Source of the DNA: Pseudomonadota bacterium
GTDB lineage: Bacteria > Pseudomonadota > Gammaproteobacteria > Acidiferrobacterales > Acidiferrobacteraceae
Direction: 5' to 3'
Length of the DNA stretch: 42,392 nt
Assembly (NCBI GenBank): GCA_021841585.1
Contig: JAKBUS010000016.1
Span: 1-42,392 of the forward strand
How positions within the stretch are numbered: position 1 is the stretch's first letter; every line of letters starts with the position of its first letter. Under the pieces are notes generated by a model. The model ran no database searches and was not told the origin of the DNA. It saw only the letters and a program-made list of their open reading frames with translations. Below are positions 1,010 through 13,618 of this stretch, piece after piece. Made by a program: the position numbers and the translations under genes.

Positions 1010-1170
1010 TAAACGTAACATCTGCATAGGGCGCCCCCGCGCCCCCGGGATTTTCCCGGTGCCAGGCTTACACTAACGCCGCGACCGCTTCCCCCAAGGC
1101 CCCACGCACTCCCCCCTGAGCGCTTGCAAAGCCCATACGCATCAGCCTGTTAGAGAACGGTTCAGGCTGC

Positions 1171-1186
1171 TGGCATGGTTCTTGTT
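1171..1186 (+). promoter_or_regulatory. Sigma-54 (-24/-12) promoter for the amyloid-like genes
   Basis: TGGCATGGTTCTTGTT fits the consensus TGGCAYR-N4-TTGCW at every defined position except one (TTGTT in place of TTGCT at -12), with exact spacing. It points at the gene starting at 1263 and leaves a leader of roughly 65 bases. A sigma-54 activator with an intact GAFTGA motif is encoded at the far end of the same locus, which strengthens the call. Confidence 0.65.
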
Positions 1187-1262
1187 AATGGTGTGCGGCG
1201 TATAGGGCGGCGGTGCGCATCAAGGCGCCGCCGGCGAGTCATCATCGAATGGATCATTAAAG

Positions 1263-1862
1263 ATGAAACGCGCGGTCTTCATCGTCGTGATTTCCACGGT
1301 CCCGCTGCTTGCGGCGGCCAAGGTCATGGCCGCGGCCCCGCCGACGGTGGTCAACTCTGCGTCGCTTACGGGCTCCGTGCTTGCCGGCGGCAAAGGTGTC
1401 GCCACGGTCAATGAGGCGGCGGGTCATGGCAATGTCCAGGCCAACAGCGACGCCATCGCCAACGGCGGCCCGGCGGTCGCCAGGATCCATCAGCGGCTGA
1501 GCGGTTCGGTCTCTGGCCTAAGCGCGGACGCCGCGCGCATAGGCGGTGAGGCGTTCGCGCGTTTTGCCGGGATACTGAACGTGAACCAGGCAGCCGGCAA
1601 CAATAACCTCGAGGCCAATGCCGTCACCATCGCGCATTCCCTTCATCGCCTGAGCCTCGATCAGCTGACGCATATCGCGTCGCCCATCAAACAGTTCAAT
1701 CACACCGGTCTGCCGGTCTCCGCGGGCGGCCGGCGCACGGTAACGGTTGCTGATAACGCCTTGAAGGGTGTAGCCGGGATTGCCCAGGTAAGCCAAGCAG
1801 CAGGCTCGGGCAACAGTCTGAGCAACAGTGTCACGCTCAATATGCCTGCGGGCATGCGTTAA
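1263..1862 (+). CDS. Small secreted protein with three Fap-type amyloid motifs
   Basis: This is a 199-residue protein with a signal peptide (basic MKRA, hydrophobic stretch, probable cleavage after VMAAA near residue 25). Three short copies of a motif centred on N/S-x-AAG-x-x-N-x-x-x-N follow at about residues 46-66 (VNEAAGHGNVQAN), 104-125 (VNQAAGNNNLEAN) and 172-192 (VSQAAGSGNSLSN). This is the same motif that dominates the large neighbour and that I associate with FapB/FapC amyloid subunits of Pseudomonas. A secreted minor subunit or nucleator (FapB-like) or a FapA-like helper is the best inference; the family cannot be fixed by eye. It is first behind the sigma-54 promoter and 60 bases ahead of the large subunit gene. 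ATG 1263 has only a weak ribosome site. Confidence 0.6.
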   Translation: MKRAVFIVVISTVPLLAAAKVMAAAPPTVVNSASLTGSVLAGGKGVATVNEAAGHGNVQANSDAIANGGPAVARIHQRLSGSVSGLSADAARIGGEAFARFAGILNVNQAAGNNNLEANAVTIAHSLHRLSLDQLTHIASPIKQFNHTGLPVSAGGRRTVTVADNALKGVAGIAQVSQAAGSGNSLSNSVTLNMPAGMR

Positions 1863-1922: not shown

Positions 1923-4157
1923 ATGGCAACTCAGTGGAAACTTCGTACCATCGTGGTGGCCGTGGGCATGGCCCTGGTCGCCCCCGTGGTTGTGGCCAAG
2001 ACGACCGGCCACGCGCAGGCCACCGCAAACAGCAGTCAGATGGCCGGCGGGTCCTTCGATTTCGCCTCGGGCTCGAGCAATAGCGCCACGATCAATAGGC
2101 GCGTCCTGCAAAACGCCAAGGGCAACATCGGCGTGAACATCGCCGGCGGCGCCGGCAACATGCAGGTCAATAACACCGACATCGCGCTTGCCAACGGCGC
2201 CCTCACCAAGAAGACCAGCACCTCGTCCGTGGTCGAGAATACGCAGCGGGCCAACATGTTCTCGATGAGCGAGTCGGCGGATGTCACCAACCGTGCCTCG
2301 GCCGCCAACCACGTCCTGCAGAATGCCACCGGCAATATCGGTTTGAACGTCGCCGCCGGCGCCGACAACATGCAGGCCAACAATACCGCGCTCAGTCACG
2401 CCCTGGGGGTGCTGCCGAGCGGCCAGGCCGCGGCCACCATTGAAAGCGCTCAGGCCTCCGGTCCGTGGGATATGGCCATGGCCGGAAACAATAACGACAC
2501 GGCAAGCCTCTCGAACCATGTCCTGCAGAACGCCTCTGGCAACATCGGCGCCAATATTGCCGCGGGCGAGCAGAACATGCAGGCCAACAATCTTGCGGTT
2601 GCCTTCAATCAGGGCGGTGTCGACGCCTATGCCGGGGCTGGCAGCCGGCAGGGCGCAAGTCTCATGGGCGCCTTCACCATGGGCGCCGACAATGACGCAA
2701 CGCTCTCGAACCACGTCCTGCAGAACGCCTCTGGCAACATCGGCGTCAATGTCGCCGCGGGCGAGCAGAACATGCAGGAAAACAGCCTGTCGGTGGCGAC
2801 CGCCTATGCCGTTTACCCCTCTTCTCCGACCGCTACCACCGGCTCCAGCGAAGCGCAGGTCGCCAATAGCCAGAACGGTGGCGTGATCGCCGGCAGTCTC
2901 AATATCGGCTCCGACAACGACGCCGCCCTGTCGAACCACGTCCTGCAGAACGCCTCCGGCAACATCAGCGTGAATGCCGCGGCCGGCACGCAGAACATGC
3001 AGGCCGACAACGTGGCCGTGGCCATGAATATGTCGACACGTTCAGGCGGCATGGCCAACTCGAGTATCGCCAATAATCAGAACGCCGGCCCGATGGGCGG
3101 CTCCCTGAGCCTCTATGGCGATGACGATGCCTACATCACCCATCATGTCCTGCAAAATGCCGCTGGCAATGTGAACGTGAACGTTGCCGCCGGTGCCGAC
3201 AACATGCAGGCCAACGGGCTTGTCGCCACCGATAACAACGCCGGCAAGCTTGCCACTGCGGCCATTGACAACGATCAGGGGACCGAGGGCTATTTTGGCA
3301 ACAGCGCGCGCCTGTCGTTCACCCGGTGGGGCTCCAACAACGCCTACCTGAACGACCAGGTCCTTCAGAACGCCTCAGGCAACGTCGGGGCCAATGTCGC
3401 CGCCGGCGCCTGGAACGAGCAGGCCAACAACCTCTCGATGGCCTATGCCGCAGGTCCGGTCGCCAGTACCACGACCGCCACCGCCGCCATCGCCGACAAT
3501 CAGGCGAGCAACAGAGCCTTGTGGCTGCCGTCTGTCGCGGTCGACCAAGCGGGCGCTATGACCGCTTCGTTGTCGGATAAGGTCCTACAGAACGCCTCCG
3601 GCAACATTGGCGTGAACGCGGCCTCGGGTCTGCAGAACGTACAGGCCAATAACACCGCGCTGGCCTATGGCCTGGGTACGGGTAACGGTGACATGGATGG
3701 CGACAATACCGGCGGGCCTGCCACGGCTGTGATCAGTGGTGTGCAAAGTTCCGGGCCCTACTCGATGGCCCTGGACATGGGCGCGAGCAACGCGGCGAGC
3801 GTGACCAATCATGTGCTGCAGAACGCCTCCGGCAATATCGGCGCGAACGTGGCCTCGGGTCTGCAGAACATGCAGAGCAATGATCTGGCCTATGCCTTCA
3901 ACCAGGCTGGTAGCAATGCCTCGGCGATGAGCAAGGTCTCGCAGGTGTCGATGGGTGCGATCGCCACGGATACGCCGGTGAGCTTCTCGATGGGCGGTGA
4001 CAACGACGGCGACAACTCCTACAGCGTCCCGACCATGAACACCGCAGCCGTGAGCAACCATGTGATGCAGAACGCCACGGGTAATGTCGGGCTGAATGTC
4101 GCGGCCGGTGCGGCCAACATGCAGCGCAACACCTTGACCATAGCGGACGCGGACTAA
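1923..4157 (+). CDS. Large FapC-like functional amyloid subunit with ten repeats
   Basis: This 744-residue secreted protein has a signal peptide ending near VVVAKTTG (about residue 27). Ten imperfect repeats follow, each with a core like VLQNASGNIGVNVAAG followed by Q/D-N-M-Q-x-N-N. The repeat valines lie at residues 61, 131, 200, 265, 340, 409, 480, 554, 631 and 714. Cores of about 30 residues alternate with variable linkers of about 35-50 rich in Ala, Asn, Ser and Gly. I see no cysteine. The GN-I/V-x-x-N-x-AAG-x-x-N-x-Q signature resembles the R repeats of Pseudomonas FapC, which has only a few copies, so this is an expanded relative. It probably polymerises outside the cell into biofilm fibres. 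AAGGAGAG lies 4 bases before ATG 1923. The hairpin after the stop and the C39 peptidase and FapE-like genes downstream support the Fap reading. Confidence 0.7.
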   Translation: MATQWKLRTIVVAVGMALVAPVVVAKTTGHAQATANSSQMAGGSFDFASGSSNSATINRRVLQNAKGNIGVNIAGGAGNMQVNNTDIALANGALTKKTSTSSVVENTQRANMFSMSESADVTNRASAANHVLQNATGNIGLNVAAGADNMQANNTALSHALGVLPSGQAAATIESAQASGPWDMAMAGNNNDTASLSNHVLQNASGNIGANIAAGEQNMQANNLAVAFNQGGVDAYAGAGSRQGASLMGAFTMGADNDATLSNHVLQNASGNIGVNVAAGEQNMQENSLSVATAYAVYPSSPTATTGSSEAQVANSQNGGVIAGSLNIGSDNDAALSNHVLQNASGNISVNAAAGTQNMQADNVAVAMNMSTRSGGMANSSIANNQNAGPMGGSLSLYGDDDAYITHHVLQNAAGNVNVNVAAGADNMQANGLVATDNNAGKLATAAIDNDQGTEGYFGNSARLSFTRWGSNNAYLNDQVLQNASGNVGANVAAGAWNEQANNLSMAYAAGPVASTTTATAAIADNQASNRALWLPSVAVDQAGAMTASLSDKVLQNASGNIGVNAASGLQNVQANNTALAYGLGTGNGDMDGDNTGGPATAVISGVQSSGPYSMALDMGASNAASVTNHVLQNASGNIGANVASGLQNMQSNDLAYAFNQAGSNASAMSKVSQVSMGAIATDTPVSFSMGGDNDGDNSYSVPTMNTAAVSNHVMQNATGNVGLNVAAGAANMQRNTLTIADAD
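2103..4140 (+). repeat. Ten tandem imperfect repeats coding for amyloid cores
   Basis: GTCCTGCAGAACGCC or a close variant recurs ten times (starts at 2103, 2313, 2520, 2715, 2940, 3147, 3360, 3582, 3813 and 4062). The period is 195-249 bases, or 65-83 codons. DNA identity is high in the core and low in the linkers. Adjacent repeats 3 and 4 are almost identical in the core, which fits recent duplication or gene conversion. Confidence 0.85.
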
Positions 4158-4170
4158 AGTCCGCAGTAAG

Positions 4171-4198
4171 GGCGGGGGTATCACCCCCGCCTGTTTTT
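4171..4198 (+). terminator. Hairpin plus T-run between the large subunit and peptidase genes
   Basis: GGCGGGGG-TATCA-CCCCCGCC is a perfect 8-base-pair GC stem with a 5-base loop, followed by TG and five T. A second perfect dyad, GCGGAC-TAAA-GTCCGC (4149-4164), spans the stop codon just upstream. This looks like an intrinsic terminator. Because the next gene starts 18 bases later on the same strand, it may act as a partial terminator that makes the subunit far more abundant than the peptidase, or as a 3' stabiliser of the subunit message. Confidence 0.75.
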
Positions 4199-4215
4199 AT
4201 CTGAAGGGTGGAGTG

Positions 4216-4902
4216 ATGTCGTACCGTCTTCGATTTTACATACTCTGGCTTGCGATCCTGCCAATCATGGCGCGGGCGGGGACGGTGGTTGTCAACGGAT
4301 TCGGGGGCGTGCCGTTCATCACGCACGTCACCAGCATGCAAGGCCTCAAGTTTCGGTCGGTGGTGCGGCAGCGCACCGACTACAGCTGTGGGGCGGCGGC
4401 GATCGCGACTTTAGCCGATTACGCCTACGGCCGGCATCTGACCGAGGATCAGGTGATCATCGGGATGCTCAAGGTCAGCAATCGCAAGGTGGTACAGAAA
4501 AAAGGTTTTTCTATGTTGGATATGGCGCGTTATCTAACCCGTCTGGGGCTCCATGGGGCCGGCTACAAGGTGCCGCCGGCCTTGCTCGTAAAGCTCCGAG
4601 TCCCGGTAATCGTGCTGCTCGATATCCAGGGCTATGAGCATTTCGTGGTGTTGAAAGGCGTGATCAACGGCCGCGCCTATCTCGCCGATCCGGCGCTTGG
4701 CAATCGCAGTCTTTCCCTGCGGCGCTTCGTCAAGGATTGGGATGATGTGGTGTTCATCGTCATGGGACCGCACTACGAGAAACACACACTGCTGCGCCAG
4801 GGGCTCAAAACGGCGCGCGTGCACGGCCTCATGGCGGCCGTGGAGCGTAATGAAACACGCAACCTGCGGGAGTTCGGTTTTATCCCCGCAACGGATTTCT
4901 AA
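4216..4902 (+). CDS. C39-type cysteine peptidase, FapD-like
   Basis: This 228-residue protein has an N-terminal signal or anchor segment (about residues 5-22) and a papain-like C39 peptidase domain, the family of bacteriocin-processing peptidases. The catalytic set is visible: Cys58 in QRTDYSCGAAA, His142 in GYEHFVVL and Asp158 in YLADPALGN. In Pseudomonas, FapD is a C39-like protease thought to assist amyloid secretion; position after the large subunit argues for the same role here, in the periplasm. It lacks ABC-transporter domains, so it is a stand-alone peptidase. The start could be ATG 4216 or GTG 4213 directly before it; AAGG at 4204 and GGAG at 4210 are the possible ribosome sites. A hairpin terminator just upstream may lower its expression. 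Confidence 0.75.
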   Translation: MSYRLRFYILWLAILPIMARAGTVVVNGFGGVPFITHVTSMQGLKFRSVVRQRTDYSCGAAAIATLADYAYGRHLTEDQVIIGMLKVSNRKVVQKKGFSMLDMARYLTRLGLHGAGYKVPPALLVKLRVPVIVLLDIQGYEHFVVLKGVINGRAYLADPALGNRSLSLRRFVKDWDDVVFIVMGPHYEKHTLLRQGLKTARVHGLMAAVERNETRNLREFGFIPATDF

Positions 4903-4940
4903 CCCAAGAATTTTTGACGATCAGGATGCGAGGAAGCGGT

Positions 4941-5726
4941 ATGGACGCGAGTGGAAAAGGGATTCGTGTTCTTCGGAGCGCGGTGTGGCTCGTGGTGGCC
5001 GGGGCGTTTTGTGCAACGGCGGTGGCGGCGCACGCTGAAACGCTGCGCGGGCGCGATGTCAGCCTGATAGCCGGGCAAGCGCCGTTATCGGCGCACGCCC
5101 TGGCGTCCCTGCGGGGGCGCTATGTGGCCCCCGAGGGCGTCGTGTACTTCGGCCTGCAGATCGTAAGCCGCTGGACGCAGGCCGACGGCTCGGGTCTTGC
5201 CGTTGGCACCAATGTCAGTCTCGGCGTCGATGGCAATGGCCATCCGCATCTGTCCGTGGGCAGTTTCTCGACCGAGACCAACGGTACGGGGGGCGCCAGC
5301 TCCGCGGGTGCCGGGACGATCACCGGCAACCCGATCGCGGGTGTCGCTGGTATCGGCCAGGGTATCCAGACCACCGGTGACGGTAACGTCATCAAGAACG
5401 CCGCGGTGATCAACGTGATGGCTGGCGGCGCGAATGGATCGCCATCCGCGGAATCTTCCGGCCCCCAGAATCTGTCGGTAACGGGTGGGGGCGGTCAGGG
5501 CCGCATCGTGTTCAATCAGAACTCGGTGATCGTGGCCATCAATGTACCGGGGCAGGGCGTCATTCAGCAGACGCTTGGGGCCCAGGGGCTCGGGCAGAGC
5601 GCGCAGGTCCTGTCGAGCGCCAACAATATCTTGAATCAAATGAGCCTAAGTGTCGGCTTCGCGCATACAAGTGGTTTCTCCGCGGCGCAGCTCGGTGCGA
5701 TCCTCGGGGCCATGAAGGGGCTTTGA
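4941..5726 (+). CDS. Secreted FapE-like protein
   Basis: This 261-residue protein has a clear signal peptide (residues 1-33, ending AVAAHA-E). The early mature part has ASLRGRYVAPEGVVYFGLQIVSRW, in which I recognise the LRGRYV...FG pattern I associate with FapE-type proteins (shown here only as a cue). A Gly/Ser/Ala-rich middle contains a Fap-like GQGIQTTGDGNVIKN stretch near residue 140, and an Asn/Gln-rich C-terminal half follows. FapE is a minor, exported fibre-associated component in Pseudomonas. The order large subunit, peptidase, this gene fits that system. GAGGA lies 6 bases before ATG 4941; ATG 4926 in frame is the alternative. Assignment rests on order and weak motifs, so the name is provisional. 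Confidence 0.55.
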   Translation: MDASGKGIRVLRSAVWLVVAGAFCATAVAAHAETLRGRDVSLIAGQAPLSAHALASLRGRYVAPEGVVYFGLQIVSRWTQADGSGLAVGTNVSLGVDGNGHPHLSVGSFSTETNGTGGASSAGAGTITGNPIAGVAGIGQGIQTTGDGNVIKNAAVINVMAGGANGSPSAESSGPQNLSVTGGGGQGRIVFNQNSVIVAINVPGQGVIQQTLGAQGLGQSAQVLSSANNILNQMSLSVGFAHTSGFSAAQLGAILGAMKGL

Positions 5727-5877
5727 CGGATTTTGGAAGGAGACCGAGCCCCCATAGAGGGGCCGGTCATGGCCACGGGGATCTTGGGGTAGGGGTATGT
5801 CTCGTCAATCGGTGGGGGCGGAGCGCGCGCGGGGGGGCCGTAGCGGGCCGGTAAGGCGCGCGGGGGGGAATGAGGCG

Positions 5878-7047
5878 ATGCGCGCCCTGGTGTTGACCGG
5901 CACGCGTCCCGATATCATAAAAAGTGCAAGCGTCGTCCATGCCCTCGAGGCCAGCGGCTGCCAGACCTTTCTTGTTCATAGCGGCCAACATGATGTGGCG
6001 GTGTCGGCGCTCTACCGGTTCCTCGAGATGCGGCCGTTTGCCACCGTGCGCCTGGGGTCGCGTGGATCGCGGCTCGCCGAATTGAACGCCCGGTTGCTCG
6101 AGGCGCTCGACCCGCTGATCGCGCGCGTGCAACCCGACGTCATCGTGGTCCAAGGCGACACCACGACCGCGCTCGTCGGCGCGCTACTCGGTTTCTATCA
6201 CCGCGTGCCGGTGGCGCATGTCGAGGCGGGGCTGCGTTCCGGCGATTGCGGTGAACCGTTTCCCGAAGAACTCAATCGGCGGTTGATCACGCGCATCGCC
6301 GCCTGGCATTTCGCACCGACACCGCTTGCGGTCGCCAGCTTGCGTCGCGAGGGCATTGCACCCAAGGCCATCACCATGACCGGCAATACTGTGGTCGATG
6401 CCGCACTGTTTGGTTACCGTCGCCTTGGGCCGCCCGCCGCCGAGCAATCGGGCGCCTCGCGCCTCATCGTCGTCACCGCCCATCGCCGCGAGAACTGGGG
6501 CGTGGGTATCGAAGAGATCGGACGGGGCGTGCGGCGCATCGCCGAGCGCCTCGCGGACATCACCGTGCTCTGGCCGCTTCATGCCAATCCCGAGGTGGCG
6601 ACGGCGGTCAGGGCGGTATGGAGCGGGCTTGCGCCGGACGTCCGTCCCCGCGTGCGGCTCGCAAACCCTCTGGCCTACCCCGACATGCTACGGGCGCTGC
6701 GCGACGCGTGGCTGCTCGTCACTGACTCCGGGGGGCTGCAGGAAGAGGCGGTGACCGCGCGCGTCCCGGTGCTGATCACCCGCCGCCAGACCGAGCGTCC
6801 GGAGGTCCTCTCATGCGGGGCCGGGCGGCTGGTGGGCGCCGATGCCAGACGCCTGGAGGCGGAGATCACGCGTCTTTATCGCTCGCGCGCCAAGTGGGAG
6901 GCCATGCGTCCGGCGCGCTCGCCGTTTGGGGATGGTAATGCCGGCCGGCGCATCGCCGCGGTGCTTGCAAAGGCATGGGTCGCCGGCGCGGGCCTATCGC
7001 CGCCGCGCGCCGCGCTCGCCGACACCCGTACCGTGGTGGCGTCATGA
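5878..7047 (+). CDS. wecB: UDP-N-acetylglucosamine 2-epimerase (non-hydrolysing)
   Basis: A 389-residue protein of the WecB/MnaA family, which converts UDP-GlcNAc to UDP-ManNAc in the cytoplasm for surface polysaccharides. Visible family motifs are GTRPDIIK near the N-terminus, VVQGDTTTAL, HVEAGLRSG, PFPEELNRRL, TGNTVVDA, VTAHRRENWG and, late in the protein, LLVTDSGGLQEEA. Length is normal. I chose ATG 5878 because MRALVLTGTRPD then matches the family start; ATG 5797 would add an unusual Arg/Gly-rich 27 residues. It opens the polysaccharide block; its stop overlaps the next start by 4 bases (ATGA). A dedicated epimerase here suggests a ManNAc-containing polymer. It could also serve other glycans elsewhere in the genome. 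Confidence 0.9.
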   Translation: MRALVLTGTRPDIIKSASVVHALEASGCQTFLVHSGQHDVAVSALYRFLEMRPFATVRLGSRGSRLAELNARLLEALDPLIARVQPDVIVVQGDTTTALVGALLGFYHRVPVAHVEAGLRSGDCGEPFPEELNRRLITRIAAWHFAPTPLAVASLRREGIAPKAITMTGNTVVDAALFGYRRLGPPAAEQSGASRLIVVTAHRRENWGVGIEEIGRGVRRIAERLADITVLWPLHANPEVATAVRAVWSGLAPDVRPRVRLANPLAYPDMLRALRDAWLLVTDSGGLQEEAVTARVPVLITRRQTERPEVLSCGAGRLVGADARRLEAEITRLYRSRAKWEAMRPARSPFGDGNAGRRIAAVLAKAWVAGAGLSPPRAALADTRTVVAS

Positions 7048-7826
7048 GCATTGGGCGGCATGGCGATTGGCGGGCGCTTGCCGCGATGCTGGCGGTCATG
7101 GTTCCGGGCATCGCCTGGGCCCATGGGTGGGTGGGCGCGGGCGTCTCGTATTACCGCCTGACCCAGGGCTATGGGAGTTTCGAGGGCCTCTATGCGAAGG
7201 GCGTATTGGGCGAGGGCTCAAGCACCATCTGGAATTGGGAGGTCGATCACGGGCGCATGTTCGGCTATGAGGAGAGCTACGGTGTCGTGGGTGTCACGCA
7301 GACCTTTGCCCCGCGATGGTACGGCTATCTGAGCCTCGCCGGGAGCACCAATTCCGATGTCGTGCCGCAAGGAAGGGTCGATGCCAGCCTTTCCTACAAG
7401 GCGCTACCCGATAAGCGCCTAGTGCTCACGGGCGGCTATACCGGCATCCGCTTTCGCGATGGCCATGATGACCGCAGCGCCTGGACGAACCTCACCGCCT
7501 ACCTCCCCGATTACTGGGTGGCGATGGCGGGCCACGATTGGGCGACGAGCAACCCCGGTGCGGTGGAGGCGCAAAGGAGTTTCGCGGCCTTCGGTTACGA
7601 CCACGGCGGCGAGACCGAGCTGACCGTACGTTATGGTTGGGGGACCGAGGCCTATCTCCCGATCGGCGCCCATGTCGCGCTCGTGGATTTCCGCAGCGAA
7701 ACCGCATCCCTTACCTGGCGACAATGGCTTGGGACCGATTGGGGTACGGACCTCTATGTGGAGCGATTCGCAAGCCCCTATTACCGACAGACCGGAGGAT
7801 CCATCGGTGTCTTCTATCATTTCTGA
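7044..7826 (+). CDS. YaiO-like outer-membrane beta-barrel protein
   Basis: A 260-residue protein with a signal peptide ending at GIAWA-H (about residue 23). The rest alternates short polar turns with aromatic-rich strands (YYRLTQGYG, WNWEVDHG, YGYLSLAGS) and ends in GGSIGVFYHF, a C-terminal aromatic consistent with outer-membrane barrel insertion. The pattern fits the YaiO family, often encoded beside glycosyltransferases. It is translationally coupled to the epimerase (ATGA overlap) and to the next gene. I infer that it passes or anchors the polysaccharide at the outer membrane; direct family assignment needs a profile search. Confidence 0.65.
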   Translation: MSIGRHGDWRALAAMLAVMVPGIAWAHGWVGAGVSYYRLTQGYGSFEGLYAKGVLGEGSSTIWNWEVDHGRMFGYEESYGVVGVTQTFAPRWYGYLSLAGSTNSDVVPQGRVDASLSYKALPDKRLVLTGGYTGIRFRDGHDDRSAWTNLTAYLPDYWVAMAGHDWATSNPGAVEAQRSFAAFGYDHGGETELTVRYGWGTEAYLPIGAHVALVDFRSETASLTWRQWLGTDWGTDLYVERFASPYYRQTGGSIGVFYHF

Positions 7827-8616
7827 CGAGCGACCCGACCCGCGCGAGGACGCGCGCATCGCGGGTTGGCGGGGCGGTGTCATTTCCCCCCACAGGGGCT
7901 TGCGCATCATGCCCCACGAGCGCGGGCGGCAGGCGCTATCCCTGATGCTGGGCCCGGTCTTCGCGCTTGCGTTAAGCTTGGCGATCGGTCCGCTCATCCT
8001 CCCGCTGTGGGCCGCCATCGAACGGTTTTGGTGTGCCCGGGCCACGCCGGCGGTGACTGTCATTCGCATACGCTATGCCTTGCCGTGGGGCTCGAGCCTT
8101 GCGGTGCCAGTCCCCGACCTTAACGCCAGCGGCCCTTCGCACGCCGCTTGGGTGACAAGCGCGGTGCTGGTGGGGATCACACTGCTTTTGGCCATGCGCC
8201 TGCGCCGCCACCACCTCCCGCTGTCGCTCGCGCTCTTTACCCTGGTGGCGGTGTTCGTCATCGGGGCCGCCGGGTTTACGCCGCTGCTCGCGCCCTTCCC
8301 TTATGTCATTCCAGGCTACATCCAGTCGATGCTGCTCATGGGGCTTACGCTCATGTTCATGACCCCGCTCATGCTCATGGTGATCTATTACCCGCTCGAT
8401 TTCGCCCTGGGCAAGAAGGTCGCCCTTACGCTATTGGCGTTGGCGTGGCTCGCCATCGCGCTGCCCTGCCAGTTTTGCCTCCAGGCATTCGTGATAAGCG
8501 GCCTCGGCCTTATCGCCTTACCCGTGCTGTTTCTGCTGTTTGGCCTGCTGCTCGACATCATGGGGCTCGTTGCGCTCTACGCCTGGGGCATGAGTTGGAG
8601 ATTGCGCCATGACTGA
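7807..8616 (+). CDS. Polytopic inner-membrane protein of the polysaccharide block
   Basis: A 269-residue protein with about six to seven hydrophobic segments: one near residues 43-65, then near 120-135, 140-160, 170-195, 200-225 and 230-262. No catalytic motif is recognised. I take GTG 7807 as start because GGAGGA (7794-7799) sits at ideal spacing; it overlaps the barrel gene by 20 bases and gives a charged N-terminal tail. ATG 7909 (MPHERGRQ) is the alternative and has no good ribosome site. Its end overlaps the glycosyltransferase by 8 bases, so it is coupled to it. By position it may be an accessory subunit of the synthase, in the manner of PgaD for PgaC, but there is no sequence proof. 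Confidence 0.6.
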   Translation: MSSIISDERPDPREDARIAGWRGGVISPHRGLRIMPHERGRQALSLMLGPVFALALSLAIGPLILPLWAAIERFWCARATPAVTVIRIRYALPWGSSLAVPVPDLNASGPSHAAWVTSAVLVGITLLLAMRLRRHHLPLSLALFTLVAVFVIGAAGFTPLLAPFPYVIPGYIQSMLLMGLTLMFMTPLMLMVIYYPLDFALGKKVALTLLALAWLAIALPCQFCLQAFVISGLGLIALPVLFLLFGLLLDIMGLVALYAWGMSWRLRHD

Positions 8617-9955
8617 CGTCCATACGGGTCTATCGTTCACAGGGCAGGCCGCGGCCGCGCATGCCAGTCTGATCGCGGTCTTGCAGCCGATCGCCTACGC
8701 CATCGTCGCGTTGGTGGTGTTCTACACCGCCCGCCACCTGTTCTTCACCATGAACCGGCTTTTTGGTCGTCAGCGCCACCCCTATCTCGACATCACCCAG
8801 GCGTCATGGCCGCTTGTGACCGTCATCATCCCGGCCCACAACGAACAGCCGGTCATCGCGCATATCCTCGAGCGCATGATCGCCGTCGACTATCCCCCGG
8901 ACCGCCTGAAGATCCTGTGTATCGACGACCGCTCCACCGACGCCACGCCGGCCATTCTGGACGACTTTGCCAATCGCCATCCCGGTCGCGTCCAGGTCCT
9001 GCACAGGCCCCCCGACGCCCAGCCTGGCAAGGCCGCGGCGCTGGTCGACGCCACCGCGTACCTTATGGGCGACATCGCGCTCGTCTTTGATGCCGACTAT
9101 CTCCCCGGCGCAGGGCTCGTAAAGCAGCTTGTGGCGCCATTCTTCGACCCTGAGGTCGGCGGCGTCATGGGACGCGTCGTCCCCTACAACAGTGGCAGCA
9201 ATCTCCTTACGCACCTTTTGGAGCTGGAGCGCGCCGGCGGCTATCAGGTTGATCAGCAGGCGCGCGCGAACCTGCGTCTGATCCCGCAGTTCGGCGGTAC
9301 CGTCGGCGGCGTGCGGGCAAGTGCCCTGCGCGCCATCGGCGGCTGGGACCCGCGCGCCCTGGCCGAGGACACCGACATCACCTATCGACTCGTCATCGCC
9401 GGCTGGAAGATCGCCTACCAGAATCGCTCGGAATGCTACGAGGAGGTCGTGGAGTCATGGGCCGCCCGTTACCGGCAGCTGCGACGCTGGTCGCGGGGAC
9501 ACAACCAGGTCCTGTTTCGCCAGCTCTTACCGCTCTTGCGGTCGTCGCGCGTGACGCGCCGCGAACGTCTGGATGGCGTATCGCTGCTCGGCATCTACGC
9601 CATGGCGCCGGTGCTCCTCATCGGCTGGCTCGTGCTCTATCTCCTGTGGCTATGCGGCGACAACGGCGGCGGTCTTTTGCTCATGCTGGCGGTGGTGAGT
9701 TATGGGACCTTCGGCAACGCCGCCGCGTTCTATGAGATCGCCTCGGCTTCGCGCCTGGATGGGGAACGCGACAAGGTCAAAGGCGTACCGCTCATTCTCG
9801 TCGGGTTCTTCGTCTCCACTTTCGCGGCGACCGCGGGGTTCCTGGCGGCCATCGGCGACACGCTGCGGCCGCGCCGAATCCAATGGCACAAGACGCCGCG
9901 TTACCGTGATCAGGCGCGTGGCGCGCCCGACCCGGCGACGCCGACGCGCCTTTGA
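8609..9955 (+). CDS. Processive family-2 glycosyltransferase (polysaccharide synthase)
   Basis: A 448-residue membrane glycosyltransferase with the GT2 layout: an N-terminal membrane segment (about 24-45), the catalytic domain, then membrane helices from about 325 to 425. The signature residues of processive synthases are all present: the nucleotide-binding DDRS at 106-109, DAD at 161-163, the catalytic-base EDTD at 253-256 and the Q-x-x-R-W motif at 290-294 (QLRRW). It is therefore likely to polymerise and extrude a beta-linked polymer across the inner membrane, like PgaC or BcsA. There is no PilZ domain. The upstream epimerase suggests an N-acetylated hexosamine substrate, but substrate cannot be read from the sequence. 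Confidence 0.88.
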   Translation: MTDVHTGLSFTGQAAAAHASLIAVLQPIAYAIVALVVFYTARHLFFTMNRLFGRQRHPYLDITQASWPLVTVIIPAHNEQPVIAHILERMIAVDYPPDRLKILCIDDRSTDATPAILDDFANRHPGRVQVLHRPPDAQPGKAAALVDATAYLMGDIALVFDADYLPGAGLVKQLVAPFFDPEVGGVMGRVVPYNSGSNLLTHLLELERAGGYQVDQQARANLRLIPQFGGTVGGVRASALRAIGGWDPRALAEDTDITYRLVIAGWKIAYQNRSECYEEVVESWAARYRQLRRWSRGHNQVLFRQLLPLLRSSRVTRRERLDGVSLLGIYAMAPVLLIGWLVLYLLWLCGDNGGGLLLMLAVVSYGTFGNAAAFYEIASASRLDGERDKVKGVPLILVGFFVSTFAATAGFLAAIGDTLRPRRIQWHKTPRYRDQARGAPDPATPTRL

Positions 9956-9965
9956 GGAGGCTACC

Positions 9966-10928
9966 ATGCTGTCGCTGTTCGCTGTTGTGACGATCATTCT
10001 TTTTCTGCTTCCGTTCACCCCGACCGCGGGGCTGTTTCTGCGCCGCCGTCGGACCCTCGGGCCGTCCCCGCTATCCGAGGGGGCGTATGCGCCGGATCAT
10101 TTTGCCCGCAATCTGATCGAAAAGCTCCGCGCACGCATGGCGCTGATCACGCAACCGGTGGTCACGGTATGCGAATATCCCCTGGATGACGAGCCGCTTT
10201 TGATCCTGCCGGCCTCCATGCGCCGGGCGCCCTCGGAGTGCGCCACGAAGATGAGCTACGCCCTGGCCGACGTGGTCTTTCCGACAGCCCTCGCATGTGA
10301 CAAGGAGATTGCCGCGGAAGGGGCGTTGGTGACGGGGGAAAATGCCAGCTATCGCGCCCTCTATGCGGCCGATACCTTGCGCGTCGGCCGGAACTCCACA
10401 ATCGTTCGGTGGTGTCATGCCGATACCCACTTGAAAGTAGACAAAAGTTGCCGGATACTCGGTCGGGCATCGGCCAATAAAACAATTAAAGTCGACGCGC
10501 CATGTCGTTTTACGACTCTGACGGCCCCGATGATTTTGATTGGATCGGCGGAACCACGGGCGGCTGGCGCCAAGGCGGAGGATTTGGCATCGGTTGCGGG
10601 CACGAATCATGTGGCCCGCGAGCCGGTGTCGCTGGCCGCGGGGACAAGACTTCATGGATCGGTCAAGGCGTATAAGCGGCTGTGCGTGGGCGCCGGTAGC
10701 GTCATAGAGGGGGCGCTTGCCTGCGAGGGTGATATCGTCATAGAGCCGGGTTGCCTGATATGGGGCCCCATAATCGCCGAGGGCGATGTCCGCATCGCCG
10801 GGGGCTGCGAGGTAGGGCGGTCGGGTCATCCGGGGTCCGTGGTCGGCGAGGATGTCGAGATCGCCGCGCCCGCCGTGATCCACGGGGCCGTGCACGCGCG
10901 TCGCGGCGGAAATATTACAGAAAGTTAA
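9966..10928 (+). CDS. Membrane-anchored bactofilin-like beta-helix protein
   Basis: A 320-residue protein beginning with a hydrophobic anchor (residues 1-25) and an RRRRTLG basic stop. A central region follows, and the C-terminal half (about 230-320) reads as short repeating rungs such as LHGSVKAYKRLCVG, SVIEGALACEGDIVIEP and IIAEGDVRIAG. That pattern suits the right-handed beta-helix of bactofilin / polymer-forming proteins. GGAGG lies 5 bases upstream of ATG 9966, and the gene starts 10 bases after the glycosyltransferase stop. Bactofilins polymerise into filaments and often organise envelope enzymes; here it may scaffold the synthase. The strand between 10380 and 10540 is more AT-rich than its surroundings. 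Family call is by pattern only. Confidence 0.6.
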   Translation: MLSLFAVVTIILFLLPFTPTAGLFLRRRRTLGPSPLSEGAYAPDHFARNLIEKLRARMALITQPVVTVCEYPLDDEPLLILPASMRRAPSECATKMSYALADVVFPTALACDKEIAAEGALVTGENASYRALYAADTLRVGRNSTIVRWCHADTHLKVDKSCRILGRASANKTIKVDAPCRFTTLTAPMILIGSAEPRAAGAKAEDLASVAGTNHVAREPVSLAAGTRLHGSVKAYKRLCVGAGSVIEGALACEGDIVIEPGCLIWGPIIAEGDVRIAGGCEVGRSGHPGSVVGEDVEIAAPAVIHGAVHARRGGNITES

Positions 10929-11010: not shown

Positions 11011-12081
11011 GTGCGCACGCGACCCTATCATCCGGCTTTCGTGGCGCTTGCCGTGGCATGCGCGTGGACCCCGCAGGCCTGGGCGGGGACGTCTCCTACT
11101 GGTCCGCTCGATGTCCAGCACAAACCCGGGGCCCAGGAGAGTGTGCAGGCGGTCTATCGCCAGCAAAATGCCCTGTTCAAGGCCGGGCAGTGGATCCTGC
11201 AGCCTGGGGTGAGCTACGCCTACTCGGACAGCAATGCCTTGACCCTGAACGGGTTCCTGGCCTTGGGGGCGATCTTTCTTGGACAGATCAATGTAAGCAA
11301 GGTACAAAGCAATATCGAGACCTTGTCGCTCCAGACCAGTTACGCCCCCACGAATGATCTCGAGCTGTCGGTGACCGTGCCCTACCTGGCCCGGCAAAGC
11401 ACGTATGTGTCGGTCGGCGTCAACAGCTCGAGCCTGCAGGCGAGCCAGCAGGACGTGACCAACAAGGGCCAGATCGGGGATGCCAGCGCCGCGCTTTACT
11501 ATCAAATCTCGGGGACCAGCGGGGGGGCCGCGACCATCTGGAACTTGACTGCCAAGGCGCCGACCGGGCGCGGGCCCTACGGCATTCCGGTGGTGACACA
11601 GGCGCAGAACAATAACCTGAGTTATCCCGAGTCCTTGCCGACCGGCAATGGCGTATGGTCGGTATCGACGGGCCTGTCCTTCATAAAGCCGGTCAGTCCC
11701 GCCATTCTCTTTGGAAGCGTGAGTTACACCTACAACATTCCGCGCAGCTTCGGTAACATCTCGAGCACCACGACACCCCAGCCCGGACAAGTCGCCGGCG
11801 GCAATTCCGTGAGCTTCGGGGGCGGCACCGCCTTTGCGCTCAATCGGCGCGTGAGCCTCACGCTGTCCATGGCCGAGACGTTCATCACCGAGACGCGCAT
11901 AAAGCCCGCGGGCGGCGCCTGGCAGGCGGTGGTCGGCAGCAGCGGCAACGCCGCGGTCTTGAATCTGGGCATGTCGTATGCCGACAGCCGCCGGGTGACG
12001 GTCGTCACCAACGTGGCCGTGGGACTGACCAAGGATGCCCCCAATATCGATCTCAGCGTGACGGTGCCCACGACGTTTTGA
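11011..12081 (+). CDS. FapF-like outer-membrane beta-barrel protein
   Basis: A 356-residue exported protein with a signal peptide ending QAWA-G (about residue 25). A short N-terminal helix-forming stretch (VQAVYRQQNALF) follows, then barrel-like strands (WILQPGVSYAYSDSN, LNGFLALGAIFLGQINV, LELSVTVPYLARQ) ending in LSVTVPTTF with a terminal Phe. The N-terminal coil and the order of strand motifs resemble FapF, the outer-membrane pore that exports Fap subunits. It also resembles the broader phenol-degradation MetA-type barrel family, which is the alternative. It starts with GTG 11011, 7 bases after AAGGAG. It is separated from the other Fap-like genes by the polysaccharide block, yet no other Fap pore candidate is in the window. 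Confidence 0.6.
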   Translation: MRTRPYHPAFVALAVACAWTPQAWAGTSPTGPLDVQHKPGAQESVQAVYRQQNALFKAGQWILQPGVSYAYSDSNALTLNGFLALGAIFLGQINVSKVQSNIETLSLQTSYAPTNDLELSVTVPYLARQSTYVSVGVNSSSLQASQQDVTNKGQIGDASAALYYQISGTSGGAATIWNLTAKAPTGRGPYGIPVVTQAQNNNLSYPESLPTGNGVWSVSTGLSFIKPVSPAILFGSVSYTYNIPRSFGNISSTTTPQPGQVAGGNSVSFGGGTAFALNRRVSLTLSMAETFITETRIKPAGGAWQAVVGSSGNAAVLNLGMSYADSRRVTVVTNVAVGLTKDAPNIDLSVTVPTTF

Positions 12082-12194: not shown

Positions 12195-13618
12195 ATGCCA
12201 GAAGCGAAGAGCGATATCGATACCAAGCAGTCCGGGTTTCGTGTCGGGCTAGGGGCCGAAACCCGCGCGCTGCTGGTCTATTGCGCCGCCAAGACCCTCC
12301 CGTTCCACGAATCCGATATCACGAGCCACGGCTGGAACCTGACGCGCGTCGGGACCTGGGGGCGGCGCGCTCTCACATGGACCGCCTGGGGGCGGGCGTC
12401 GGTATCGTATGCCTGCAGGACGCCAGCGAGAAGGCGGTCGCGGACGCCGAGGCCCTGCTCGGCTATGGCAACAATCGCTTCCGGTGGATCGCGATCCTCG
12501 ATCTTGCATTTCTGAAAAACGCAGTCGCCAATCATCTCATCAGCGAGTGCTGTCTCGACTTCCATGTGGCGCCGGTGGACGTGCCACGGCTTTTGCACAG
12601 TCTCGGTCACGCCCTGGGGATGGCGCACCTTAGCCGCAACCAGCGCAAGGGTGCGGCGGAAAACCGCCTGGAAAAGAACATCATTGGCGCGAGCCAGGCG
12701 ATGAAGGCGACCGTTCAGCGGATTGCGAAGATCAGCCAATCGGATGCGCCGGTCTTGATCCTGGGCGAGACGGGTACCGGCAAGGAGCTATGCGCCCTGG
12801 CGGTCCACGCCCACTCGGTGCGTGGCGCGCGCCCGTTCGTGGCGGTCAATTGCGGGGCGCTACCCGACAAATTGATTCAGTCGGAACTTTTTGGTCACGA
12901 GAAAGGCGCCTTTACGGGCGCGCATCAGCGCAAGATCGGGCGCATCGAGGCGGCCGAGGGCGGCACGCTTTTTTTAGACGAGATCGGCGACTTGTCGCTC
13001 GACCTCCAGGTGAACCTGCTACGGGTCTTGCAGGACGGGACCTATGAACGCGTGGGGGGTACCGAGACCATGTGCGCCGACATCCGCGTGATCGCCGCCA
13101 CGCATGTCGATATGGAAAAGGCGGTAGGCGAGAAGCGGTTTCGCGAAGACCTCTACTATCGCTTGAACGTGCTGAATCTGGACGTGCCGCCACTGCGCAG
13201 CCGCGACGGCGACGTGGCCCTGCTCGCCCGTCACTGGTTTGATCGGTTTGCCGCCGAGAGAAACCCGCAGGTGCGCGGCTTCAGCCGCGATGCTTTGGCG
13301 GCCTTGAGCCGGCACCACTGGCCTGGAAACGTGCGCGAACTCATCAACCGGGTCCGGCGCGCGATGGTGATGTGCGAGCGGCAACTCATCGGCCCAGAGG
13401 ATCTGGGCCTCGACTATGTCGGGTCCCACCAGGATATCCCGGTCGAGGAGACCCTCGCCGAGGCGCGTGAACGCGCCGAGCGCGAGGCGATCTGCGAGGC
13501 CATCGACAGGAGCGCGGGCAACCTGTCGCGCGCGGCGCGATCGCTCGGGGTCTCGCGGGTTACGCTCTACCGCCTGCTTGATAAATATCAGATCCCCCAT
13601 CGCCTGCCGCGGAACTGA
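12195..13618 (+). CDS. VpsR-like sigma-54 transcriptional activator with apparent frameshift
   Basis: The protein has three parts. The N-terminal VpsR-type receiver-like domain begins ALLVYCAAKTLPFHESD and continues VGIVCLQDASEK. The AAA+ sigma-54 interaction domain has Walker A GETGTGKE, the sigma-54 loop GAFTGA, Walker B LFLDEIGD and the arginine-finger region FREDLYYRLNV. The C-terminal FIS-type helix-turn-helix is NLSRAARSLGVSRVTLYRLL. The start (ATG 12195, preceded by GGAAGGAGG) and the downstream part lie in different frames. They join if one G is added at the G5 run at 12358-12362, giving 474 residues. Without it, the first frame ends at 12515 and the domain is split. The downstream frame alone has no plausible start. 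By family it would control biofilm-matrix genes; the intact GAFTGA fits the sigma-54 promoter at 1171. Confidence 0.75.

Follow-up and report, generated by a model that had tools for sequence, protein, structure and literature searches.

A predicted ten-layer FapC amyloid subunit whose repeat number appears fixed within a candidate Fap subtype of Acidiferrobacter-type bacteria

In the accessible parts of the published surveys, the Fap amyloid system is described as evolutionarily fixed, with a near-constant gene order and rare transfer between lineages (PMC12392863, PMC12822426, PMC3792158). Its minimal repeat is written GX4NX3GX6N (PMC3792158), and 1,031 of 1,094 FapC proteins (94.2%) have three repeats (PMC12392863; the count is repeated in PMC12822426). 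The same sections also record departures from this plan. Models of FapC with 4–16 repeats, 10 among them, keep the core (PMC12392863); repeat numbers of 4–8 in Acidithiobacillus and 16 in Vibrio are given per genus, loss of fapA and placement of fapF apart from the main operon are listed as deviations, and a fapF lying elsewhere is suggested to belong, perhaps, to a novel operon (PMC3792158). Expanded FapC proteins, including ones of ten repeats, are already published; what we did not find in print is a ten-repeat clade spanning two orders, or the five-gene block described below. Within our partial coverage of the literature, no paper on amyloid in Acidiferrobacter was found, and no fap operon with such polymer genes was evident from titles and the openings of abstracts.

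Here, we analysed a window of 42,392 nucleotides, the whole stretch of DNA considered (contig JAKBUS010000016.1 of the Acidiferrobacteraceae assembly GCA_021841585.1). On the joint basis of homology, repeat register, predicted fold, gene order and phylogeny, we consider it likely that this window encodes a ten-layer FapC with a fixed repeat array, belonging to a Fap subtype of its own. The locus runs from an exonuclease III-type gene through fapB, fapC, fapD and fapE to a five-gene block, fapF and a VpsR/sigma-54 activator, with the following fap genes:

1263..1862, + strand: fapB, minor/nucleator subunit, 199 aa (NF058557, 100.5 bits, below the cut-off of 190)
1923..4157, + strand: fapC, predicted amyloid subunit with ten repeats, 744 aa (NF058558, match to UK4 FapC, repeats, AlphaFold2 model)
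4213..4902, + strand: fapD, C39-type peptidase (NF058616, 195.8 bits, cut-off 330; PF03412)
4914..5726, + strand: fapE, start codon unsure (NF058559, 98.6 bits, cut-off 250)
11011..12081, + strand: fapF, outer-membrane exporter (NF058560, 315 bits, cut-off 700)

The best-matching NCBIfam families of the flanking products come in the order FapB, FapD, FapE and FapF, all four at scores below their cut-offs. Two features depart from the canonical fapABCDEF arrangement: fapE and fapF, adjacent in that arrangement, are parted by 5,284 nt holding five genes, and FapC has ten repeats where the canonical definition asks for exactly three. The FapA model matched none of 21 genomes and was also silent in all 14 controls. 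PF23949, tried as a Fap family, proved a wrong guess, with a single match on another contig and below the cut-off. Judged by eye, the fapB product carries two repeats that fit GX4NX3GX6N and a third, degenerate one with S for N.

The fapC reading frame, complete from ATG to stop in the ORF list of the window, begins with what looks by eye like a signal peptide. A DNA repeat search recovered one repeat family within it, comprising ten 88-nt copies that start at 2084, 2294, 2501, 2696, 2921, 3128, 3341, 3563, 3794 and 4043, are spaced by 195–249 nt (65–83 residues) and are 65–78% identical to the reference copy. When the published pattern was searched with its last N relaxed to N or D, ten repeats were again found, nine of them exact and repeat 5 with D in the last place. 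A repeat profile likewise gave ten matches (E values of 2.0e-21 to 3.4e-16), the profile including these same ten repeats. The independent NCBIfam FapC model, NF058558, aligns to seven stretches of the protein and only just exceeds its cut-off (196.5 bits against 195), and a sequence search of PDB chains aligned the protein to UK4 FapC with an E value of 6.8e-14. Given these matches to the independent model and to UK4 FapC, the ten-repeat array is not a product of chance, and on sequence grounds the product is assigned as FapC, the major Fap fibril subunit. No Pfam family matched at E values up to 0.1, and curlin repeats of the curli (CsgA) kind, for which Pfam holds a model, were not found. 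Nine relatives were present in database genomes, one from an Acidiferrobacter sp. and the others from Proteobacteria metagenome-assembled genomes. A first-pass annotation made from the letters alone had called this gene an amyloid subunit with ten cores 65–83 residues apart in 744 residues, more than in Pseudomonas FapC. Both the DNA repeats and the motif pattern confirm the array, the comparison stands at ten against three, and NCBIfam and the predicted fold support an amyloid subunit of the FapC kind.

The AlphaFold2 model of FapC, built from nine close aligned sequences, has a mean pLDDT of 82.9 and a pTM of 0.87, with strands throughout the mature chain. Its top Foldseek match in the PDB is FapC itself (9u4u_A, E value of 6.4e-3), the sole row with a probability above 0.01, at an E value that is not strong when taken alone. 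VIA-align superposed three model layers on the cryo-EM structure 9u4u_A over 150 of 150 residues, with an rmsd of 1.3 Å, a Z score of 12.1 and 38% identity, along model residues 36–227. Unrelated rows reached Z scores of up to 11.6 (a beta-helix), at 3.7–7.0 Å and 2–12% identity, and by Z alone FapC (12.1) and the next row (11.6) are tied. Repeat proteins can too easily be modelled as a tidy stack. In the predicted model, the protein adopts the Greek-key layered fold of 9u4u, and the structure prediction proposed in the first-pass annotation as a check returned a repeated stack that superposes on 9u4u_A, rather than a chain devoid of one.

Each repeat holds an N-x-Q triplet, which in the window FapC reads NMQ six times, then NEQ, NVQ, NMQ and NMQ. 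Most cores thus carry NMQ (8 of 10), as had been noticed, and all ten retain the flanking N and Q; both are kept in 126 of the 130 triplets of 13 ten-repeat arrays, the four exceptions falling in the sister-genus genome G014, in G317, which belongs to another order, and in two paralogues. The NQQ named there for Pseudomonas FapC was also right, being found in all three repeats of UK4 FapC. The idea of a special swap of NQQ for NMQ fails, since the middle residue is free: among 45 repeats taken from 15 three-repeat FapCs, Q and L occupy it 12 times each, A 7 times, M 6 times and other residues 8 times, and the published motif, in the accessible text, writes the place gNqQN, with small letters for high, not full, conservation (PMC12392863). 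Q closes the triplet in all 45 of those repeats, as found with a search pattern that fixed the N and left the Q free. That paper also reports that alanine at the conserved Asn and Gln slowed fibrillation (PMC12392863). NMQ as an adaptation was rejected, as the middle residue varies across the 15 three-repeat FapCs.

Across genomes, the profile gave exactly ten matches in each of eight (G000, G002, G004, G005, G008, G009, G011 and G012) and 20 in each of G013 and G014, which amounts to two ten-repeat FapC genes apiece. G003 gave 11, with repeat 8 appearing before and again after a stretch of N that is most simply an assembly gap. There was no repeat match in 4 of 14 genus genomes (G001, G006, G007 and G010; 85–94% complete), so that the Fap system is either dispensable or was missed there, nor in three of the four other genomes of the family. 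Among 57 genomes of the order, the only other matches were in G044 and G053, with three-repeat FapCs. Of 369 class genomes sampled evenly, 18 match the profile, with about ten repeats in one gene only in G000, G317 and the broken G003, and three or fewer per frame in the others; of 398 phylum genomes, 17 match, and four is the most that any one frame contains outside G000. Viral contigs contained 70 pattern stretches, none of them a relative. Two ten-repeat FapCs are orphans, one in a sister-genus genome (L051:9764-12172) and one in a genus genome (L092:12021-14276); they are 42–43% identical to the window FapC, and tblastn found no fap neighbours beside them.

Thirteen intact arrays could be aligned, including those of the window, the two orphan paralogues and G317, and excluding the G003 FapC with its N run. 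The repeats number exactly ten in each of the 13 and fall in identical alignment columns. When core and linker are taken as a unit, the best partner lies at the same position for 10 of 10 units between the window and G014, 7 of 10 between the window and G317, and 9 of 10 between the window and G014p. Position permutations over eight pairs (16 tests) never reached the observed sum in 20,000 trials in 15 tests, and reached it 12 times in 20,000 in the remaining one, which concerned the linkers alone of G317 and G014p; the unit sums were never reached in any of the eight pairs. With cores only, the same-position partner is best for 8 to 10 of 10 within the genus and for 1 to 8 of 10 between the genus, G014, G317 and the paralogues, the two paralogues matching each other in 10 of 10; with core and linker together, six such distant pairs give 5 to 10 of 10. 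Spacing correlates at 0.51–0.52 (p values of 0.07–0.09) between the window and G014, G317, G014p and G011, so that spacing alone is weak evidence. Concerted evolution of the repeats was considered and is not supported, as cores within the genus match best by position. On the question of which repeat was duplicated, repeat 3 of three-repeat FapCs gives the top score at each of the ten positions, a preference that a consensus-like sequence in that repeat might also produce.

Relative to the window, the other twelve proteins have core identities of 54–92% and linker identities of 32–85%, and in seven pairs dN/dS is 0.083–0.169 in cores and 0.176–0.279 in linkers. Both cores and linkers are thus under purifying selection, and the linkers drift faster than the cores, under constraint. 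With ten repeats, one register and position-matched linkers, we conclude that the repeat number is fixed and old. The first-pass annotation had suggested instead that near-identical cores beside diverged linkers reflect a repeat number changing by duplication, and the corresponding explanation, an ordinary Fap operon with repeats gained by recent and still active tandem duplication and a number varying by strain, could draw on cores that average 56% amino-acid identity within the window protein, on a closest pair that is 78% identical in DNA and on the 11 matches in G003. We regard it as highly improbable. "Near-identical" is generous for cores with that mean, and orthologous cores within the genus average 71–92% amino-acid identity to the window, against 56% between the repeats of one chain. 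The eleventh match of G003 is repeat 8 read on either side of the N run. The divergence of the linkers holds within the window FapC but not between orthologues, where linkers are also conserved, though less than cores. The comparison of repeat counts that the annotation itself proposed gave the outcome that it had named as counting against duplication, a constant count with linkers matched by position, and active tandem duplication is already contradicted at the species level. Recent tandem duplication was rejected on the constant count and the position-matched units.

Between fapE and fapF lies a block of five genes of polysaccharide type:

5797..7047, + strand: block gene 1, wecB-type UDP-GlcNAc 2-epimerase (TIGR00236, 340 bits, over cut-off)
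6975..7826, + strand: block gene 2, YaiO outer-membrane barrel (TIGR04390, 131 bits, over cut-off); true start probably near 7068 or slightly before
7891..8616, + strand: block gene 3, hydrophobic protein with no family assigned, start unsure (Met at 7909)
8609..9955, + strand: block gene 4, family-2 processive-type glycosyltransferase (nearest PgaC/IcaA, TIGR03937, 110.9 bits, far below the cut-off of 422; PF13641)
9951..10928, + strand: block gene 5, bactofilin-like in its C-terminal part, start unsure (PF04519, 29.7 bits, cut-off 27.9)

Block gene 3 has no Pfam match, and its longer frame no NCBIfam match; distant homologues of it stand near yaiO and family-2 glycosyltransferase genes in G267 and G391. 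All five genes are found between fapE and fapF in 10 of 12 ten-repeat loci, namely 9 of 10 genus loci and that of G317. G014 lacks the block and G012 retains one of the five genes, which shows that amyloid and polymer are separable. In G012 (L039:565-1781), the bactofilin-like gene was the only one found between fapE and fapF.

Whether the block belongs to the Fap system can be argued from both sides. The five genes may be bystanders that landed between fapE and fapF and act on their own, as would suit their absence from G014, their near-absence from G012 and the existence of relatives without fap: G267 has four of the five and G391 all five in a different order, and neither is among the 18 class genomes with a repeat match. 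Yet nine of the 10 genus loci keep the block in order and place, and so does G317, from another order, at identities of 33–62%, and the genes lie on one strand, 20–64 nt apart or overlapping, at 70 nt from fapE and 82 nt from fapF (with some starts unsure). Bystander genes are thus a reading to be kept in mind, to which we give roughly one chance in three, and we lean slightly towards amyloid and polysaccharide being co-produced, as this gene arrangement suggests.

The ten-repeat loci form one clade across two orders, with support of 100/100 for FapF and 100/99 for FapD, G317 lying outside family f1. The FapF tree was built without the G012 protein, which is cut by a contig end; in it, a grouping of family f1 with the three-repeat G044 and G053 of the same order was rejected (p-AU of 4e-40), for a group named only after the tree had been seen. 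In the FapD tree, the G317 branch is long (0.99) and its exact place is therefore unsure. A tree of the family-2 glycosyltransferase, from which the L042 match (27%) was left out, joins G317 with the genus against free-standing relatives (100/98), and the meeting of the long branches of G267 and G391 in it is flagged. The FapC tree, also flagged for long branches, does not resolve G014, G317 and the genus from each other. The simplest history would be one expansion with the block already present, followed by loss in G014 and reduction in G012.

The G317 locus repeats the order of the window, from fapB, a ten-repeat fapC, fapD and fapE through all five block genes to fapF and the activator, and could be explained by either transfer or old paralogy. 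Vertical descent from an ancestor with two Fap loci, with no passage between lineages, would suit a genome that has both this locus and a three-repeat fapC-fapB-fapD stretch, and would agree with the rarity of transfer reported in the accessible text of one survey (PMC3792158). The locus proteins are only 33–62% identical to those of the window, and any transfer must therefore be old. Vertical descent would require many losses, because only one of the five genomes from the G317 order has the type, as does a single family of the window's order, and we place it somewhat short of an even chance. The fuller proposal, of a distinct subtype that makes its ten-layer amyloid together with a dedicated exopolysaccharide from one operon, under one sigma-54/VpsR-like switch, and has spread as a unit between acid-living iron-oxidiser lineages, is tentative, and we think it rather less probable than its negation. 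The three-repeat stretch of G317 (L091, on G317:C3) has the same gene order as L041, L042 and L116, and the 15 kb read around it yielded no fapE, fapF or activator.

Three further elements bear on the expression of the locus:

1170..1187, + strand: sigma-54-like promoter element CTGGCATGGTTCTTGTTA, 75 nt before fapB (aligned genus loci)
4170..4192, + strand: terminator-like hairpin with T-run, between fapC and fapD (hairpin scan, alignment, shuffles)
12281..13618, + strand: sigma-54 activator with VpsR domain and Fis-type HTH, adjoining fapF (PF20161, PF00158 and PF02954, over cut-off)

All ten genus loci in the alignment carry the promoter element, which differs among them at a few letters and is surrounded by diverged intergenic sequence; its -12 part reads TTGT, not TTGC. 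Its pattern, written after the alignment had been seen, has one match in the window and none in shuffles. A strict sigma-54 scan of the window upstream of fapB found no canonical site and missed the element, and the relaxed pattern was not found before fapB of G014 or G317. The hairpin scan of the region gave 11 sites against 9.2 expected, the hairpin at 4170–4192 having the longest stem (10 pairs). Every one of the ten aligned genus loci has this hairpin, in which 3 of the 10 pairs show a pair-keeping change on both sides and the innermost pair is broken in three loci. By a single hairpin rule, 19 of 27 fap loci have such a structure following fapC, none of 26 has one following fapB, and none appears in 810 single-base shuffles; the rule finds no hairpin in G317 or in seven three-repeat loci and does find one in some three-repeat loci, so that, from sequence, a hairpin after fapC looks like a more general Fap feature. 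In the window and 18 other fap loci, it is a possible means of holding subunit transcripts above those of the export genes. The VpsR domain of the activator is the only presumed link to c-di-GMP in the window locus. Of 15 three-repeat stretches, 14 have a tblastn match to the activator and L091 has none, in a search in which any sigma-54 activator would match. In G008 (L034:4052-6935), fapF and the activator match are separated by about 2 kb, and the match extends over just 242 residues; an insertion is possible there.

Rusticyanin-type genes match in 10 of 10 fap-bearing genus genomes, over the cut-off in eight and below it in G012 and G013. In G014, G317 and the three order-mates covered, the matches fall short of the cut-off; a further seven genomes gave only weak matches in four cases and none in three. 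These genes fit an iron-oxidiser lifestyle of the carriers and, together with the composition of the mature window FapC (pI of 4.38, 8.3% charged residues), fit life in acid; they have no bearing on fibres or their toughness, which the first-pass annotation had suggested might rise with more stacking units per chain and suit harsh habitats.

Our favoured reading, a ten-layer FapC whose array is fixed and which belongs to a distinct Fap subtype, would work as follows. FapC of this Acidiferrobacter-type bacterium would be exported through FapF, aided by FapD and FapE, and would polymerise on the cell surface into fibres, each monomer contributing ten stacked Greek-key layers rather than three. 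Ten layers per monomer would therefore give about three times the usual fibre length per chain and fewer subunit joints per length. The array would predate the split of its carriers and have kept its ten units from then on, with every repeat and every linker evolving separately at its position. The locus would represent a separate Fap subtype, in most carriers with the five-gene block between fapE and fapF and then the VpsR-like sigma-54 activator. Amyloid and polymer may be made together as a composite attachment matrix, with genes switched on through sigma-54, perhaps in response to c-di-GMP, and the hairpin after fapC may keep FapB and FapC above the export and polymer genes.

That one clade holds to another, equally fixed repeat number and has polymer genes in its operon suggests that the number can be reset once and then locked. 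Such a clade allows a direct test of how the number of layers per chain relates to nucleation, fragmentation and stiffness, and co-production, if true, would provide a simple genetic handle on matrix building by acid-living bacteria.

Among known systems, the window locus shares with Pseudomonas Fap (UK4 FapC, PDB 9u4u/9nqd) the repeat motif, the NCBIfam FapC model, the predicted Greek-key stack and the neighbouring fapB, fapD, fapE and fapF; it differs in having ten FapC repeats instead of three and, unlike Pseudomonas Fap, in the five polysaccharide-type genes that part fapE from fapF. The multi-repeat FapCs of Acidithiobacillus, a genus of acid habitats, and of Vibrio, compared here through their published description, have an expanded repeat number and the same expected fold, but their numbers are stated per genus whereas the window clade is fixed at ten, and the window FapB, with two clear repeats and one degenerate, is unlike those multi-repeat systems. 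The 10-repeat FapC modelled in Fig. S8f of PMC12392863, as far as the accessible text describes it, equals the window FapC in repeat number and may come from the window genus. BrfA, described in the accessible text of PMC13101488 as the c-di-GMP-sensing enhancer-binding protein of fap in P. fluorescens, is like the window activator, by description, in being an enhancer-binding (sigma-54) activator tied to fap.
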